NCBI GenBank assembly: GCA_937919825.1
Contig: CALFPA010000091.1
Coordinates: 1 to 64,000, forward strand
Source of the DNA: an uncultured Spartobacteria bacterium
GTDB lineage: Bacteria > Verrucomicrobiota > Verrucomicrobiia > Chthoniobacterales > Terrimicrobiaceae
Reading direction: 5' to 3'
DNA length: 64,000 nucleotides
The notes beneath the pieces are model-generated. The model searched no databases. It was not told the origin of the DNA and worked only from the letters and a program-made list of their open reading frames with translations. Positions 19,301 through 27,235 of the stretch are shown here, one piece after another (the stretch's first letter is position 1; every line of letters starts with the position of its first letter). Made by a program: the position numbers and the translations under genes.

Positions 19301-19342
19301 AACAAACGCCGGACCTTGGAAACAGGGCCCGGCGTTTTTGTT
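19301..19342. terminator. Bidirectional terminator between fusA and glycosyltransferase
   Basis: AACAAACGCCGG (19301-19312) pairs with CCGGCGTTTTTGTT (19329-19342). It has a T-rich 3' arm on the plus strand and an A-rich 5' arm, so it can serve fusA (plus) and the convergent GT4 gene (minus) alike. Confidence 0.75.
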
Positions 19343-19344
19343 GA

Positions 19345-20628
19345 CTACTCGCCGAAGAGGGATGCCAATCTCGCCTCAAGCTTTCGGCGAAGAACGGCGC
19401 GGGAAAAATATTTCAACCCGAGCTCATAATTTTTTACCGCCCAATCAGCCCGAATTTTTTCATCGGATAGAATCAGCCGGGTTTTCTCCACCGCCGCGCG
19501 GGTGACAATCTGGGACATACCGATCGTCTCGAATCCCAACGGGGCGATATCCCGGACGTATACAGCGTAATTGTTCACAAAAACCGGTTTGCCGAAATAA
19601 ACCGCCTCGAGGAATGCATTGCCAAAGCCCTCGTAGTGGCTCGGGTAGGTCACCAGGTCGGCATGGGGGTAGACATCAAAGAGGGTGTAAATTTTACGCC
19701 CGTCCGGGGTGATTCCACGGCTCTCGCCAACGCGGTCTGCGATGAATACAGCCTCAATGCCCGCATCGGCTATCCGCTCGTTGATGAGTTGCATGTAGTC
19801 GTTGCCCTCATCGCCAGCCGGGTGTGAAAGGACCAACTTCATCCGGGGATCACCCAACTGCCGGAGGAGGTCGATCGCGTGCTCGATCCCCTTGCGAGCC
19901 ACCACCCGGGTGGGCTGGAGAACAAGAATGTCGTCGTCCGAGAGGCCGATTTCCCTGCGAAGATCGGCGTTGTAGGCGTCGATTCCAGGCGGCGGGGTTT
20001 CGAAATCGAGCACATTTGGAATGAAGGTGGATGAAAGGCCGTAGCGGCGCGCGAGTTCCTTTTGAGCCATCGAATTGATGACCACATGCTCAATATGAAA
20101 GAGCGAAGGGGGAAAGGCCGCCATCAGGTAGTCCGATGCCGAGGTGGTTGTAAAACGCTCGCGCTCCCAAGTGAAATCGTGGTGGTGGGCGATGGTCGGG
20201 ATCCCCGTCTCCGCGATGAATTCCGTAATGGCGAGGCCCAGCGCAACATGCATCGGAATGGCCAGTGTATTCTGGGGAATAAGCAGGCCGATTTCAAAAC
20301 GATCGACAAAAGCATAAAGCTCATCCTTGAGCCGGTCTTTGATTCCGTTGATCAGGGCGGTTGTTCGACGGGAGCGGGTGATCTGGCCAAAAAGCTCCGC
20401 CTGGGACTCGAGCACTTCAGGGTGATTGAAAAATGCCAGCGGCACAAGCCGACTTCTCTCGGGAGGCGTATCGAGAAGTCCTCCCATCCAACAACACTCC
20501 GCCCCGGCCGCAGTCAACTCCTCCGCCCATTTACGGGCCTCGAGAGTCACCCCATCGGTGCCGTGAAATCTTGTGGAAACAAATCCAACGCGCCTAGGTA
20601 ATCGTGTGCAAGTAAGTCGAGGGCTCAT
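19345..20628 (-). CDS. GT4-family glycosyltransferase
   Basis: About 427 residues from the ATG at 20628; a GTG at 20649 is an alternative. GT-B fold features: N-terminal VGFVSTRFHGTDGVTLEARK (Gly-rich loop region), HHHDFTWERERF, LVLQPTRVVARKGIEHAIDL (start of the C domain), and the EX7E motif YEGFGNAFLEA followed by FGKPVFVN. It transfers a sugar from an activated donor; the acceptor is unknown. It is divergent from the GH13 phosphorylase and shares its HHHDF signature with the second GT4 of this island at 23042, so the two are probably related partners. Inferred to act in the glycosylglycerate-type pathway encoded here. Confidence 0.82.
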   Translation of the reverse strand: MSPRLTCTRLPRRVGFVSTRFHGTDGVTLEARKWAEELTAAGAECCWMGGLLDTPPERSRLVPLAFFNHPEVLESQAELFGQITRSRRTTALINGIKDRLKDELYAFVDRFEIGLLIPQNTLAIPMHVALGLAITEFIAETGIPTIAHHHDFTWERERFTTTSASDYLMAAFPPSLFHIEHVVINSMAQKELARRYGLSSTFIPNVLDFETPPPGIDAYNADLRREIGLSDDDILVLQPTRVVARKGIEHAIDLLRQLGDPRMKLVLSHPAGDEGNDYMQLINERIADAGIEAVFIADRVGESRGITPDGRKIYTLFDVYPHADLVTYPSHYEGFGNAFLEAVYFGKPVFVNNYAVYVRDIAPLGFETIGMSQIVTRAAVEKTRLILSDEKIRADWAVKNYELGLKYFSRAVLRRKLEARLASLFGE

Positions 20629-20677
20629 GAAGCAAGTCGCAGGTTGCACATGAGGACTGGTCAGTCAATCATCAGCT

Positions 20678-22351
20678 ATGAATTGGAAGGACAGATTACG
20701 GCGCGAATTGGAATTCGTTTATGGGGCGGTTGAGGGTCCCAAACTTGCAGAGGCCTTGATCAAACTCGCCGAATCCGAGCGGGTAGAAAACTTCCATCAA
20801 GATTTCAACAATCCCAGCGAGGTGATTCTGATTACCTATGGAGACCAGGTTCAGCGTGATGGCGAACCTCCCCTCGCCACCTTGCGATATTTTTTGAGGA
20901 ACCATATTAAAGACCTCGTGGATGGAGTTCATCTTCTCCCATTCTATCCGTGGTCCTCGGATGACGGATTTTCCGTAATGGATTTTTTCGCCGTCGATCC
21001 CTCGCTTGGAACTTGGGAGGATATCCGCGCTTTGGGTAGCGATTTTAGGTTAATGTTTGATGGGGTTTTCAACCACGCCTCAGCGAAAGGAGTGTGGTTT
21101 GCCAAATTTTTGAACGCGGAGCTTGGTTACCGCGATTTTTTTACCACTGTCGAGGGCTCCCCCGATCTTTCAAAGGTAGTGCGCCCCCGCGCGCTGCCTC
21201 TTCTTACGGAATTCCAAACCAAAGAGGGTCTCCGGCGGGTTTGGACCACATTTAGCGCCGACCAAGCCGACCTGAACTTCCGCGATCCCTTCGTCATGCA
21301 TTCCTTGTGCGAAGCCCTGCTGTTTTACCTGCGCCAAGGCGCGCGCCTGGTGCGCCTGGATGCGATCGGCTTTATTTGGAAGGAAACTGGCACAAGCTGC
21401 ATCCACCTTCCCCAAGCCCATGCGCTGGTCCGCGCTTGGAGGGCGATTGTGGACGGCGCAGCGCCGGGAGCGAGGCTGGTGACGGAAACAAATGTCCCGC
21501 ATGCCGACAATGTCTCATATTTCGGAGACGGCAGTAACGAGGCCCACATGGTTTATAATTTCGCCTTGCCACCATTGGTTCTTCACACGCTCCGCTCCGG
21601 CTCTGCTGTGGCAATCAATCGATGGGCTAGTAATCTGGAAACCCCATCTCAGGAAACCGCCTTTTTCAATTTCCTAGCCTCCCACGACGGGATCGGCCTC
21701 AACCCGGCCCGGGGAATCCTTTCCGAATCCGAAATCAATGCTCTGGTTGCTGCCGTGCGGGAAGGAGGAGGCTTTGTTTCGATGAAAGCCCTACCTGGAG
21801 GAGGCGAAGCCCCCTACGAACTTAATATGAATTTTCTCGATGCACTGGCCGTCGGAACAGATTTTGATACGGCCGTCGCACGATTCCTCTGCGCCCATGC
21901 CATCGCCTTTGCACTGGCAGGAATTCCCGGAATCTATTTCCACTCTCTCTTCGGATCGCGCGGCGATGTGAAGGGTGCACAAATCTCTGGAATCCCGCGT
22001 CGGATCAATCGCGAGAAATTTGAACTCCACAATCTCGAAGAGGAACTTGGGCGCCCCGACTCGCTGCGTAGTCAGATTTTTCAAGGGCTTGCTAGCCTGC
22101 TGCGTGCCAGAAAAAGCCTCTCCGCTCTCGCTCCGGCGTCTCCACAGTGGATTGAGGATTTCGGCAACAGTGTTGTTGCGATCCGCCGGGGGAGCGAATC
22201 CAACCCGGTTATATGCTTTCATGAAATCTCCGGCGTCCCAGTAGAATTTCCCTTGGATGGTAGCTGGAGGGATGCCATCTCCGGGTGCATCCACACCGAC
22301 TCCGTGAAACTGCCCCGCCTGGGAATCGCTTGGCTCAGCCGTGTTTCTTGA
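20678..22351 (+). CDS. GH13_18 sugar phosphorylase (sucrose / glucosylglycerate phosphorylase-like)
   Basis: 557 residues; TIM-barrel enzyme that splits a glucoside with phosphate. Catalytic residues expected for GH13 are visible: nucleophile Asp228 (LVRLDAIGF), acid/base Glu270 (LVTETNVPHADNVSYFG) and stabiliser Asp337 (LASHDGIG). PFYPWSSDDGFSVMDF resembles the substrate-site strand of sucrose phosphorylases. Classical sucrose phosphorylases have about 490-505 residues; the E. coli YcjM type (glucosylglycerate phosphorylase) about 560, which fits better. The neighbouring GT81 gene supports glucosylglycerate as substrate. Substrate assignment is inference. Its last 17 bases overlap the convergent HAD gene. 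Confidence 0.85.
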   Translation: MNWKDRLRRELEFVYGAVEGPKLAEALIKLAESERVENFHQDFNNPSEVILITYGDQVQRDGEPPLATLRYFLRNHIKDLVDGVHLLPFYPWSSDDGFSVMDFFAVDPSLGTWEDIRALGSDFRLMFDGVFNHASAKGVWFAKFLNAELGYRDFFTTVEGSPDLSKVVRPRALPLLTEFQTKEGLRRVWTTFSADQADLNFRDPFVMHSLCEALLFYLRQGARLVRLDAIGFIWKETGTSCIHLPQAHALVRAWRAIVDGAAPGARLVTETNVPHADNVSYFGDGSNEAHMVYNFALPPLVLHTLRSGSAVAINRWASNLETPSQETAFFNFLASHDGIGLNPARGILSESEINALVAAVREGGGFVSMKALPGGGEAPYELNMNFLDALAVGTDFDTAVARFLCAHAIAFALAGIPGIYFHSLFGSRGDVKGAQISGIPRRINREKFELHNLEEELGRPDSLRSQIFQGLASLLRARKSLSALAPASPQWIEDFGNSVVAIRRGSESNPVICFHEISGVPVEFPLDGSWRDAISGCIHTDSVKLPRLGIAWLSRVS

Positions 22352-23045
22352 CCGCCTGGCGAAGCTCAGCCCAATCTCCGTCGCCATCCCGATGCAGATG
22401 CCAGGTTTGGAATTCCATTGCTCGGGCGGGCAAGATGTCGTTGTCCATGCGATCTCCAATCATCAAGCAGTGGCATGGTTCCAACCCGCGAGCGAGCAGG
22501 CGGGATGCAAGAGTCTGAAAAAAATAGGGATCCGGCTTTGAGAAGCCCAATCTCCACGACCAGATGGAAAGGTCTTGAGAGAAAATTCCAACCGTCAACC
22601 CTAAGGGTAAAAGCGCAGAGCTCAGCTCTTGAAGGGTGTATGCCTGTGCATTTGAGGCGATGCCGAGTGGAATATCAGCAGCAGTCCAATCCATGAGGCA
22701 AGTGGCCGCGCCTTGAGAGAGCGAGGTGCTTCTAAAGAGACTCTGTTGGGCGACTTGGAAATCCATAGCCGCGCCTGGGGGTAATTCTTCGAATTCAGGC
22801 AACACCCTGCCGAGCACCCTATGCCACTGCACCTCCGGAAACCGGATGCCGCGATTTTTGGATTTCTCATGGAGATTAGTGATTTCCGACCGGCAGGCCA
22901 TTTCGAATTCCCTTAAGCCAAAAGAGGGGGGCTTTCTAAAAAATTGTTTAAAAAGCTCCTCCCATCGCGCATCTAAATCTCCCAGTGGAGTTTCCACATG
23001 AAGGACTGTTCGGTAGATATCACAAATGATGGCTTGGTATTTCAC
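22335..23045 (-). CDS. HAD-superfamily hydrolase with DxYxT motif
   Basis: 236 residues from a GTG at 23045 that overlaps the upstream glycosyltransferase stop (GTGA). HAD motifs: YQAIICDIYRT (Asp9; the second Asp of the phosphatase motif is Tyr11), LGIASNAQ (motif II), FSKPDPYFF (Lys) and LMIGDRMDNDILPARAM (motif IV). DxYxT is typical of haloacid-dehalogenase-like members, but also occurs in uncharacterised HAD proteins. Position suggests a phosphatase for a glycosyl-3-phosphoglycerate, which would conflict with the missing acid/base Asp. Function unresolved. Confidence 0.75.
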   Translation of the reverse strand: MKYQAIICDIYRTVLHVETPLGDLDARWEELFKQFFRKPPSFGLREFEMACRSEITNLHEKSKNRGIRFPEVQWHRVLGRVLPEFEELPPGAAMDFQVAQQSLFRSTSLSQGAATCLMDWTAADIPLGIASNAQAYTLQELSSALLPLGLTVGIFSQDLSIWSWRLGFSKPDPYFFQTLASRLLARGLEPCHCLMIGDRMDNDILPARAMEFQTWHLHRDGDGDWAELRQAVKKHG

Positions 23046-24592
23046 AGTTCGGTGGAAAAAAGCAAAGGGTAGAGGTTTCGGGTGCTGAGACGGTCTCGCA
23101 GAAAGGCACGAAGGGTATGCGAGGGGGCATCCAGAGAGACCTTGGGCGCGCATTCAGCCATCTTCACAGCGGTGCAAAAATTTTCCCGGAATCGTTCCGG
23201 CGAGAGTGAGTCGGCTCCGGAATCGTTAAAGCCAGCCGGCGGCAGGTTGACGGCATTACCTTGGATGGCTGCAAGTTTTGGATTTAGCGGCGCTAGGGCC
23301 GCATGAAGGTCCTCTGAGCTTGAGGACAGGACTTCTTCCTGCGCCATGAATGTAAGCCGGCTGAATGCCACCGGCTCTGTAGCCTGGCTAAGAAAGCCGG
23401 GTTCTTCGCAGAAAGCTGCTGCCTCGGAAGGAAGTCCCGCGCGCCAGGTATTCCACCGTTGGCGCTGTCGCTCCACCTCGGCATTCGAATCGAAGAGATC
23501 GAGTGGCACGACAACCTCCTCATAGGTGGTTGGAGCTAGCAGGCCAGCGGAAACTAGATCCGGCATCACATTTGGCAGAGAACGCGCTAGCAGTGGTCTT
23601 TCCCCAGAAGCAGCCTCCAAATAAGGAAGCCCGAAGCCCTCCTGCAGGGAGGTCAGAAGAACCGTCTCCGCCCCAGCAATCAAAGCGGAAACCGGTGGGG
23701 GGTTTTTTACATCAACCAGAATCCCGAGGTCGAGTCTCCATCCATGCTTGGCAGCAGCTAAGGCGAGCCCCTCGGCGTAGTTCGATTCTTCAGCAGATGT
23801 CGGGGCACCCGTAGTCATGATATGGGCCTCGGGACGCAGCCAGCGAGCTAGTAAAACCGCCTCTGCCATGTTTTTTCTTCGAAGAAGTCGGCAGGGAAGA
23901 AGCCAATAGGGGCCGGCGAAGCCGGTTCGGGAAGCAACCCACTGCAAGGCCGATTGAGCCTCAGCGGAGCCATGCGCGGCGGGAGTCACCGCATTGGGAA
24001 TCCAAAGGGCCCCCGACCCGAATCCTGCTGCCAGGCACTCGTGGTCGGCACGATTAATCGCGACATGGACGATCCGACTTCCGACTGGAAAAACGGCGGC
24101 AGCGGCAGCGTCGAGCGTGGCGGTTCCACCGGAACGCATTTCGGGCCAACGGTTCCAGCGGTTGTCGAAAAAAAAGTCGTGGTGGTGGGAAACAAAAACA
24201 GCCCCGGTTGCATCGACGGCTTCTGCCCAAGCGGAAGCCAGAGCAATATTTCTCCCCAGTCCGAGATTGTGGGCCCACAGGATCGCATCGGTCCCACTGC
24301 AATCCGCAAGAAGACGCTTGCAGATATCAGGAAGATTTTTTGTCCTCTCACGGGCGTCATCCCCCAGTTCGGACCAATAGAGAAACTCGGGGTGAACGCG
24401 GATCTCCAGAGGGGTTCCATCAAGCGAGACCCGCAAACGCTCGATCCAGGTGGATTCTGCCGACTCACCCACGGCCAGAATGACGCGCGCCATCCGGCCA
24501 CCTCCAGCAAGCAGCGGCATCGCGGTTTCGATGACGCGGCGAACACCTCCGGGTCTGAGATGATAGTGCGAAACAACGAGTGTCCGGTTCAT
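23042..24592 (-). CDS. GT4-like glycosyltransferase, large
   Basis: 516 residues from the ATG at 24592 (MNRTLVVSHYHLRPGGVRRV). GT-B features: a Gly-rich N-terminal loop (YHLRPGGVRRVIETA), HHHDFFFDNRWNRWP, PYWLLPCRLLRRKNMAEAVL (C-domain start) and the EX7E motif QEGFGLPYLEA. A C-terminal extension of about 130 residues beyond the usual GT4 size has no recognisable domain. Upstream of and overlapping the HAD gene; divergent from the GT81 gene (43 bases between starts). In MGG-producing bacteria a second transferase lengthens glucosylglycerate; a similar job is possible here but unproven. Confidence 0.75.
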   Translation of the reverse strand: MNRTLVVSHYHLRPGGVRRVIETAMPLLAGGGRMARVILAVGESAESTWIERLRVSLDGTPLEIRVHPEFLYWSELGDDARERTKNLPDICKRLLADCSGTDAILWAHNLGLGRNIALASAWAEAVDATGAVFVSHHHDFFFDNRWNRWPEMRSGGTATLDAAAAAVFPVGSRIVHVAINRADHECLAAGFGSGALWIPNAVTPAAHGSAEAQSALQWVASRTGFAGPYWLLPCRLLRRKNMAEAVLLARWLRPEAHIMTTGAPTSAEESNYAEGLALAAAKHGWRLDLGILVDVKNPPPVSALIAGAETVLLTSLQEGFGLPYLEAASGERPLLARSLPNVMPDLVSAGLLAPTTYEEVVVPLDLFDSNAEVERQRQRWNTWRAGLPSEAAAFCEEPGFLSQATEPVAFSRLTFMAQEEVLSSSSEDLHAALAPLNPKLAAIQGNAVNLPPAGFNDSGADSLSPERFRENFCTAVKMAECAPKVSLDAPSHTLRAFLRDRLSTRNLYPLLFSTEL

Positions 24593-24618
24593 AAGGGTTG
24601 ATCCTCGCAATGATTGGC

Positions 24619-24624
24619 TAGACA
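24619..24624 (+). promoter_or_regulatory. Possible -10 element of the GT81 gene
   Basis: TAGACA lies 10 bases before the ATG at 24635; TTGATC (24598-24603) lies 15 bases further upstream. If used, the mRNA would be nearly leaderless. Spacing is poor, so support is weak. Confidence 0.25.
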
Positions 24625-24634
24625 ATCAAAACCT

Positions 24635-25843
24635 ATGGCTGATTTCTTTCAAACAGGTGCAATGGCGACCCTCCATCGGCTCGGAAATTCTGGGGTGGAA
24701 CGCCTCGAGGAGCAATTGCGCTTCTTTGTTCAGGACATGCCGATCGCTCTGGTGCTTCCCTGTCACATCGATGAACTTGGCACCCCCGCATTGCGCAATA
24801 TTTTACGCGAACTAGACGGAGTGGATTATCTCAAGCAGATCATTGTCGGGATCGACGGGGCATCCGCCGCGCAATGGCGCAAAGCCCGGGCTTTTTTCTC
24901 GAAATCCCGCCACAGCCCGACACTCCTGTGGAACGATGGTCCAAATATGCGGCGTCTGCTGGACAAGATTTCTGATGCAGACCTGGATCCCGGCAAGCGA
25001 GGAAAGGGAAGGAACATGTGGCTTTGCTTTGGCTATGTTCTAGCGACCGAGGAGGCAAAAGTTATCGCGTCGCATGATTGCGATATCCTCACCTATGACC
25101 GGGAGCTTCTTGCGCGACTCTGCTTCCCTGTGGCCAACGACCGCCTGGGGTTTGACTTCTGCAAGGGCTATGCTGCCCGATTCACCACCCGGCTCAATGG
25201 GCGCGTGATGCGATTGATGTTCACTCCGCTGATTCGCTCGCTGGAGAGCATCATAGGCCCTCATCCCTTCCTGAACTATATGGATACTTTCCGCTATCCC
25301 CTTTCGGGCGAAATTTGCGTCGATCTGGATGTTGTCCGCCGCGCTCGCATGCCCTCCGATTGGGGCGTGGAGGTAGGAATGCTTGCCGAGGTCTTTCGGG
25401 TAACCTCCCCGAAAGCGATCTGCCAGGTGGAAATCGGCGACCGTTTCGACCACAAGCACCAGGAACTCTCCGCCCGGGATCCCTCGAAAGGTCTTAACAA
25501 AATGGCGACAGATATCGCGCGCTGCATATTCCGGACCATGGCGGCAGAGGGCATCCGACTGGACTCAGGCCTTTTCGATGCCCTCTTGAGCGCCTATCAA
25601 CGAAAGGCCGAGGACACCATCCGCTTCTATAACGCCGACTCGGCCATCAATGGGCTATCGTTCGACCGTCACCAGGAGGAGTTGGCCGTATCAACCTTTG
25701 TTAAGGGAATCCGAACCGCCGCCCGCGAATATATGGAAGATCCGCTCAGCGGTTCACTCATCCCGAACTGGAACCGCGTCGAGTCCGCCTTGCCCGATTT
25801 TTTGGATGAACTTCGCGAGGCGGTTGCCTTGGACAACAAATAG
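24635..25843 (+). CDS. gpgS: Glucosyl-3-phosphoglycerate synthase-like enzyme (GT81)
   Basis: 402 residues. GT-A fold: IALVLPCHIDELGTPALRN and IIVGIDGASAAQWRKAR (nucleotide-sugar half), SHDCDILTYDRELL (D-C-D, the metal/nucleotide site), the acceptor region LSGEICVDLDVVRRARMPSD, WGVEVGMLAEVFRV and DRFDHKHQELSARDPSKGLN (His residues as in GpgS). Such enzymes join glucose (from NDP-glucose) to 3-phosphoglycerate, the first step to the compatible solute glucosylglycerate. Together with the GH13_18 phosphorylase this supports a synthesis-plus-recycling island. An alternative TTG start lies at 24614. It could also use mannose or another sugar; assignment by motif memory, not by search. Confidence 0.72.
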   Translation: MADFFQTGAMATLHRLGNSGVERLEEQLRFFVQDMPIALVLPCHIDELGTPALRNILRELDGVDYLKQIIVGIDGASAAQWRKARAFFSKSRHSPTLLWNDGPNMRRLLDKISDADLDPGKRGKGRNMWLCFGYVLATEEAKVIASHDCDILTYDRELLARLCFPVANDRLGFDFCKGYAARFTTRLNGRVMRLMFTPLIRSLESIIGPHPFLNYMDTFRYPLSGEICVDLDVVRRARMPSDWGVEVGMLAEVFRVTSPKAICQVEIGDRFDHKHQELSARDPSKGLNKMATDIARCIFRTMAAEGIRLDSGLFDALLSAYQRKAEDTIRFYNADSAINGLSFDRHQEELAVSTFVKGIRTAAREYMEDPLSGSLIPNWNRVESALPDFLDELREAVALDNK

Positions 25844-25902
25844 ACGCTTGTGAAAGGCCGCTAGAGTTGACCTGAAAACATTCTTCCCTGATTGCGGGAT
25901 GC

Positions 25903-25931
25903 TTGCGCCCGCCGCCGCGCTTTTCTAGCTT
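25903..25931 (+). promoter_or_regulatory. Probable metY promoter
   Basis: TTGCGC (25903-25908), 17 bases, TAGCTT (25926-25931); predicted start about 25938, 17 bases before the metY ATG. The 110-base gap shows no SAM-riboswitch-like pairing. Confidence 0.45.
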
Positions 25932-25954
25932 TGGCGCTCTTACAACGGAATCCC

Positions 25955-27235
25955 ATGAAACTCGAAACCATCTGCCTTCACGGAGGCGCCGCTCCTGATC
26001 CCATAACCCTCTCGCGCGCTGTGCCGCTCCACCGCACGAGTTCGTTTGTTTTCCGCGACACCGAGCACGCGGCGAATCTCTTCGGCCTGCGTGAACTCGG
26101 GAACATCTACACGCGCCTGATGAATCCCACCCACGATGTGCTTGAGAAACGCGTCGCCGAACTCGAGGGTGGCGCCGCCGCTCTGGCACTGGCTTCCGGG
26201 ACGAGTGCGATTTTCTACACTGTCATCAACCTCTGCGCGGCGGGCGATGAGATTGTATCGGCAAACAATCTTTACGGCGGCACTTTCACGCAGTTCCACG
26301 ACATCCTCCCGCAGTTCGGCATCAAGGTTCATTTCGTCGATCCCAAAAACCCCGAGAATTTCGCCAAGGCGATCACGCCAAAAACCAAGCTCCTCTTCTG
26401 CGAAACGGTTAGCAACCCCGGCCTGGATGTTGCCGACCTCGAAGCGATCGCTGCCATCGCCCATAAAAACGGCCTCCCGCTCGTGGTCGACGCGACCTTC
26501 AGCACACCCTACCTCACCCGCCCGCTCGACCATGGCGCGGACATCGTCGTCCACTCGCTCACGAAATGGATGGGCGGCCATGGCACCGCCATCGGCGGCA
26601 TTGTTGTTGATTCCGGCAAGTTCAACTGGAACTCCGAGAAATTCCCGCTTATGACCCAACCCGACGCCAGCTACCACGGTGTCCGATGGGCCACAGACAT
26701 CGGGCCGCTTTGCCCGGTGGCTTTTGCGATCCGCATGCGCGTCATCCCACTCCGCAACCTCGGCGCATGCATCTCGCCCGACAATGCCTGGATGTTTCTG
26801 CAAGGCATCGAAACCCTCCCGCTGCGCATGGAGCGCCATTGCGAGAACGCGCTCGCCGTTGCCAAGCACCTCAAAAACCATCCGAAGGTCGAGTGGGTGC
26901 GCTTTCCCGGCCTGCCGGACGATCCGAATTTCGAACTCAACAAAAAATACCTCCGCGGCAAGGGCGGATCGATGGTCGTCTTTGGCATCAAAGGCGGCAA
27001 CGCGGCAGGCACGAAATTCATCGAGAGTCTGAAGCTGTTCTCCCACCTCGCGAATGTCGGCGACGCCAAGAGCCTCGCCATCCACCCCGCCACCACCACG
27101 CACTCGCAACTCACCCCCGACCAGCAGGCCGCCGGCGGTATCACACCCGAACTCGTTCGCCTCTCCGTCGGCATCGAGCACATCGACGACATCCTCGCCG
27201 ATCTCGACCAGGCCCTCGCCACCGCGGCTCAATAA
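25955..27235 (+). CDS. metY: O-acetylhomoserine sulfhydrylase
   Basis: 426 residues. PLP enzyme (Cys/Met metabolism family) that makes homocysteine from O-acetylhomoserine and sulfide. Motifs: YTRLMNPTHDVLEKRVAELEG, SGTSAIFYTVINL, LYGGTFTQF, CETVSNPGLDVADLE, VVDATFSTPYLTRPLDHGAD and the PLP Lys204 in HSLTKWMGGHG. The C-terminal segment NVGDAKSLAIHPATTTHSQL is characteristic. The gene is followed after 8 bases by metX, which makes its substrate. The ATG at 25955 is chosen; upstream codons lie over the predicted promoter. Confidence 0.95.
   Translation: MKLETICLHGGAAPDPITLSRAVPLHRTSSFVFRDTEHAANLFGLRELGNIYTRLMNPTHDVLEKRVAELEGGAAALALASGTSAIFYTVINLCAAGDEIVSANNLYGGTFTQFHDILPQFGIKVHFVDPKNPENFAKAITPKTKLLFCETVSNPGLDVADLEAIAAIAHKNGLPLVVDATFSTPYLTRPLDHGADIVVHSLTKWMGGHGTAIGGIVVDSGKFNWNSEKFPLMTQPDASYHGVRWATDIGPLCPVAFAIRMRVIPLRNLGACISPDNAWMFLQGIETLPLRMERHCENALAVAKHLKNHPKVEWVRFPGLPDDPNFELNKKYLRGKGGSMVVFGIKGGNAAGTKFIESLKLFSHLANVGDAKSLAIHPATTTHSQLTPDQQAAGGITPELVRLSVGIEHIDDILADLDQALATAAQ

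Follow-up and report, generated by a model that had tools for sequence, protein, structure and literature searches.

Does an island of five genes in the genome of an uncultured Spartobacteria bacterium (2.7 Mb in 143 contigs) make and recycle glucosylglycerate (GG) or a longer glycoside, as a sequence-only reading had proposed, and what would its two GT4 glycosyltransferases contribute? The window, by which we mean the whole 64,000-nucleotide stretch of DNA that was analyzed, carries all five open reading frames at the positions and in the orientations (- + - - +) given by that reading, bounded by fusA on one side and a metY-like gene on the other (Table 1). We favor, with a probability of about 0.62, the explanation that the island encodes a GG-based compatible-solute module comprising a phosphorylated arm, a free-GG arm and recycling by a glucosylglycerate phosphorylase (GGaP).

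The intergenic spacings, together with a 17-bp overlap between the 3′ ends of the GGaP and HAD genes, resolve the island into two tight divergent pairs (GT4a/GGaP and GT4b-HAD/GT81) arranged tail to tail. As read in the sequence, the GTG start codon of the HAD gene and the TGA stop codon of GT4b overlap within the four letters GTGA. The GC content of the island (0.53–0.59) lies a little under that of its flanks (0.55–0.64). A -10/-35 scan of the GT4a/GGaP intergenic region returned no site, no excess of promoters or terminators was found in the island, and neither a salt-stress regulator nor a transporter was found within it. Just 3′ of fusA, between that gene and the convergent GT4a, we noted by eye a terminator-like inverted repeat with a T-run (window 19305-19339; stem AACGCCGG/CCGGCGTT, 16-nt loop).

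Table 1. Features of the island (window coordinates) and the GpgS-GGaP fusions read through in other genomes
Feature	Coordinates	Strand or spacing	Start	Assignment	Evidence
GT4a	19345..20628	-	probably ATG 20628 (alignment and reading; ORF opens at 20649)	GT4 glycosyltransferase, distant mannosylglucosylglycerate synthase homologue (MggS/MggA-like)	NF041101 match, EX7E, HHHDF
Intergenic GT4a/GGaP	20629..20677	49 bp, divergent		presumed shared promoter region	sequence
GGaP	20678..22351	+	ATG 20678	predicted GH13_18 glucosylglycerate phosphorylase	YcjM identity, TETN and PYELN motifs, tree
HAD-IA hydrolase	22335..23045	-	GTG 23045	presumed glycosyl-phosphoglycerate phosphatase	PF00702, motif I, fold, junction
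GT4b	23042..24592	-	ATG 24592	predicted GT-B retaining glycosyltransferase, uncharacterized; partner of GpgS and HAD	AlphaFold model, EX7E, co-occurrence
Intergenic GT4b/GT81	24593..24634	42 bp, divergent		presumed shared promoter region	sequence
GT81	24635..25843	+	ATG 24635	predicted glucosyl-3-phosphoglycerate synthase (GpgS, methanogen-type)	NF040724, HDCDI (DxD), GKGRN
GpgS-GGaP fusion	L179:7974-10979
GpgS-GGaP fusion	L180:7776-10742
GpgS-GGaP fusion	L182:5799-8777
GpgS-GGaP fusion	L183:7511-10498
GpgS-GGaP fusion	L184:3453-6479

The GH13 protein matches PF00128, and its best named NCBIfam match is to sucrose phosphorylase (TIGR03852; 177 bits, under the cut-off of 334), which would speak for a sucrose phosphorylase and a sucrose-related island. 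Against this, it shares 45% identity across 507 aa with Escherichia coli YcjM, a characterized glucosylglycerate phosphorylase, and displays both GGaP hallmarks given for GH13_18 (PMC7178133), which are (T/S)ETN and a loop-A Glu: the former is TETN at the tip of β-strand 5, and the latter is a Glu instead of Gln within the stretch GGGEAPYELN. The two hallmarks recur in 39/39 GGaP-like proteins collected. Eight GH13_18 homologues of lower score in the phylum carry N(L/V)D(I/L/V)YQ, the motif of sucrose phosphorylases; loop A of the window protein lacks it and has EAPYELN instead. In a maximum-likelihood tree, the GGaP clade including YcjM (100/100) was separate from the clade of homologues with the sucrose motif (100/100), and the window protein was placed next to the one from Chthoniobacterales. 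By every test available, then, the GH13 protein is a predicted GGaP and not a sucrose phosphorylase, as first suggested from its length; motif and tree contradict the sucrose alternative, to which we assign a negligible probability.

The GT81 protein finds its best family in the methanogen-type GpgS (NF040724), matching along its full length at 315 bits (7e-94), under a cut-off of 700 that was unreached in all 58 genomes searched around it; the active-site motifs HDCDI (DxD) and GKGRN are conserved in its alignment. A GpgS of another type, NF010496, scores above the curated cut-off in 51 genomes, and the two types never occur in one genome among the 289 genomes evenly sampled from the phylum. 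The slot beside GT4b/HAD is filled by GT81 or by an over-cut-off NF010496 protein, never by both, and in Alienimonas the latter heads the same GT4b-HAD-GT4a-GGaP run. Since one type replaces the other in an equivalent setting, there is good evidence that the GT81 protein of the window, a relative of the methanogen-type GpgS, would make glucosyl-3-phosphoglycerate (GPG). It groups with GpgS rather than with unrelated GT2 enzymes and holds the position of a trusted GpgS in related clusters, in agreement with its original assignment. An M20-peptidase-like gene repeatedly adjoins the NF010496-type GpgS (L192:10126-11310; L161:8693-9865; L127:3845-5095).

Of the two glycosyltransferases, GT4a matches mannosylglucosylglycerate (MGG) synthase, NF041101, over residues 21-424 at 196 bits; its relatives score 208-254 bits and a second group in the phylum 330-450. 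As GT4a falls far under the cut-off of 640, we regard it as a sister type, MggS-like rather than a proven MggS. GT4b reaches 17 bits with the same profile and otherwise gives weak matches to GT4 profiles, and its family could be matched to no characterized enzyme. Its AlphaFold model (pLDDT 89.6) has a GT-B retaining transferase fold and aligns with 4xsr with Z 23.3 and rmsd 3.5 over 342 residues; the fold neighbors are HepE (Z 23.3) and, near it, BshA, MshA and PimA, an answer that holds at the level of the fold. On this model, we consider GT4b an uncharacterized, predicted GT-B retaining glycosyltransferase. Both proteins carry EX7E, and their mutual homology is weak (25% across 258 residues, 4e-12). 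The HHHDF motif that they had been said to share is indeed present in both window proteins and is kept in six aligned relatives of GT4a; the GT4b family mostly has xxHDF, and judged from these alignments HHHDF does not characterize that family as a whole. The suggestion that the pair extends the solute as in MGG producers is plausible, given the NF041101 homology of GT4a and a relative of GDP-mannose pyrophosphorylase in the host genome, whose gene at C131:23830-24858 resembles mannose-1-phosphate guanylyltransferase (TIGR01479 at 287 bits; the cut-off of 373 is for the bifunctional form). As a test of the donor, GDP-mannose supply was set aside as not discriminating, since every genome checked has a relative of the guanylyltransferase. 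In a related genome, GGaP and GT4a are separated by genes for a bufferin-type MNIO maturase, a DoxX/HvfX protein and a DNA methyltransferase (L039:14541-17868).

The HAD hydrolase belongs to subfamily IA (PF00702). It retains the nucleophile Asp, the motif II Ser, the Lys and the motif-IV acids, yet its motif I reads D-x-Y-x-T, as in 21/21 aligned members, in place of the DxD that supplies the nucleophile and the acid/base Asp; the second Asp is missing, as in haloacid dehalogenases. A fold search, informative at the fold level, returned both the phosphatase-type YfnB and haloacid dehalogenases among the nearest folds. The second Asp is likewise missing from some HAD phosphatases, YihX for example, and the D-x-Y motif thus calls for caution and does not refute a phosphatase. 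Furthermore, HAD adjoins GpgS where GT4b is lacking in three genomes (G064, G108 and G267), and in two genomes without GT4b it directly follows GpgS, in both with overlapping codons. Such direct succession fits a phosphatase acting on the GpgS product, a phosphoglycerate glycoside. From its coupling to GpgS and GT4b, we presume HAD to be the phosphatase of GPG or of a glycoside of it.

We used the GT4a alignment for a profile scan of the contigs of named genomes, which retrieved 504 relatives, and examined the neighbors of the best 80 loci. Excluding frames antisense to module genes, the commonest genuine neighbors at these best 80 of 504 loci were GT4b (27), GGaP (20) and HAD (20); GpgS was present too, in two types, and all five families occurred at 7 of the 80. 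Full or partial sets were recovered from Verrucomicrobiota, Planctomycetota, Desulfobacterota, Spirochaetota, Kiritimatiellota and one gammaproteobacterium. In the 289-genome sample of the phylum, counted without correction for ancestry, GT4a is present in 37 genomes, GT4b in 51, HAD in 49, GGaP in 55 and GpgS in 74; GpgS accompanies GT4b in 51/51 genomes and HAD in 49/49. Thirty of the 289 genomes carry all five families, 13 of them within 20 kb, and each pair of families is associated at Fisher p of ~1e-18 to 1e-44, in genomes that are not phylogenetically independent. The association of the five families is not due to chance, and the genes are conserved together elsewhere. The sequence-only reading had further called the combination unusual; this claim does not survive the phylum survey and the published clusters of GpgS, GpgP and GGaP (PMC7178133, PMC10873239).

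Gene order points to two subunits within the set. GT4b and HAD are adjacent in that order at 22 loci, 12 of which overlap by 1 or 4 nt. At 16 loci GGaP comes directly after GT4a, five times with an overlap; in Aeoliella, a single co-directional operon runs GT4b>HAD>GT4a>GGaP>GT81. From this coupling and from a genome (G110) in which an MggS-type transferase is directly followed by GGaP (L190:8550-11642), with no GpgS found and no GT4b, we infer the split into a GpgS-GT4b-HAD arm and a GT4a-GGaP arm; GGaP in G110 may run in the synthetic direction. In the phosphorylated arm, GpgS would transfer glucose from NDP-glucose to 3-phosphoglycerate to yield GPG, GT4b would attach a further sugar to GPG, and HAD, whose gene is translationally coupled to that of GT4b, would then take off the phosphate. 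In the other arm, the MggS-like GT4a would act on free GG, most likely with mannose from GDP-mannose, to give MGG, and an MGG-like product is plausible. GGaP would convert free GG into glucose 1-phosphate and glycerate once the solute is no longer needed.

Alternatively, both GT4 enzymes might act in series to place two sugars on glucosylglycerate, the longer glycoside being perhaps a primer or storage compound, like the starters of mycobacterial methylglucose lipopolysaccharide, and not a classical osmolyte. GT4b is also present in 34/37 genomes with GT4a, and the two share a single operon in Planctomycetota, as such a series would lead one to expect. The retention of GpgS and GT4b alone in highly reduced 0.9-Mb genomes of the same order (L186:7767-10228; L187:7403-9867) is likewise odd for a dispensable osmolyte, though one of these two genomes has GT4b broken up into two ORFs. 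Six genomes have GT4b and GpgS, with or without HAD, in the absence of GT4a (G031, G231, G268, G296, G304 and G329), which, with the converse pair in G110, indicates that each arm can act alone; we accordingly consider the serial scheme rather unlikely. Put forward tentatively, as less likely than not, is the proposal that GT4b typifies a new family with GPG as its only acceptor, working obligately together with GpgS and usually also with an atypical Asp-x-Tyr HAD phosphatase; its product would be an undescribed glycosyl-glucosylglycerate that ranks among the more common small solutes or primers in Verrucomicrobiota, Planctomycetota and Desulfobacterota.

GT81 and GGaP matches lie in one open frame, with GpgS N-terminal and GGaP C-terminal, in at least 13 genomes of the phylum. 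Nine such fusions that were tested form one clade (100/100), and the five that we read through span 988-1008 residues; their identity with the window proteins is 43-46% for GT81 and 37-42% for GGaP. Each joins a synthase to a phosphorylase whose substrate is what the synthase makes, once dephosphorylated, and so ties making to breaking; no description of a GpgS-GGaP fusion was found in the literature searched. At 4/5 fusion loci with annotated neighbors, the adjoining gene codes for a Hydrolase_3 HAD, a different type of phosphatase. The occurrence of fusions beside this HAD without GT4 genes, like the published GpgS-GpgP-GGaP clusters (PMC10873239), would suit a plain cycle, with GG made by GpgS and HAD and broken down by GGaP, the GT4 genes of the island belonging to unrelated surface polysaccharide synthesis. 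This explanation is improbable in view of the GT4 genes themselves: GT4b never occurs without GpgS, 25 genomes have GT4a no more than 15 kb from GGaP, and overlapping start and stop codons join GT4 genes to their module partners.

In 13 genomes of the same genus, we found the divergent GT81/GT4b pair, with HAD, GGaP and a close GT4a absent from the regions read, so that not every member of the lineage has the full route. The GT81 proteins of same-genus genomes are 42-47% identical to that of the window, versus 81% for one from another family of the order; together with the partial sets in the genus, this suggests that the full island was probably gained or kept differently in the window's genome. 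The adjoining metY-like gene (window 25892-27235) has a close homologue in 1/8 same-genus genomes searched, and in an empty-site comparison the window sequence upstream of metY matched nothing in that one genome.

A make-and-recycle module for GG solutes, as we read the island, would be common in large, poorly cultured phyla of soil and sea, and a clear substrate hypothesis is now at hand for GT4b and for the D-x-Y HAD, both uncharacterized families of enzymes. In solute-making organisms, GGaP is co-inherited with the synthase and sometimes fused to it, which bears on the reason for its presence there. The in vivo purpose of GGaP was stated to be open in a review (PMC7178133), and the fusions and linked genes make it testable.

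The conjunction of synthase, phosphatase and GGaP is already known from the GpgS-GgaP-GpgP clusters of Synechococcus PCC 7002 (A2021-A2023) and Marinobacter (PMC10873239, PMC7178133). The island resembles these in pairing a predicted GpgS and a presumed phosphatase for synthesis with an adjacent GGaP for breakdown, and differs from them in its two GT4 genes, its candidate phosphatase of the HAD-IA type with D-x-Y-x-T, and its gene order. The novelty lies in the coupled GT4b family, in the atypical HAD and in how widely the five-gene set occurs. Unlike the window GGaP, E. coli ycjM belongs to an operon that includes genes for sugar transporters and none for GpgS. MGG is made by two routes in Petrotoga mobilis (GpgS/MggA and Ggs/MggS) and by GpgS/MggA/MggB in Rhodopirellula baltica. 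In the latter, a planctomycete, MGG accumulates (PMC3694870). With the pathways of both organisms, the island has in common a predicted GpgS, GT4 transferases and a presumed phosphatase, GT4a being homologous to MggS (NF041101); it departs from them in that GT4a scores under the MggS cut-off and a GGaP stands in place of Ggs. The favored explanation thus parallels the two MGG routes of Petrotoga, with a phosphorylase added for recycling.
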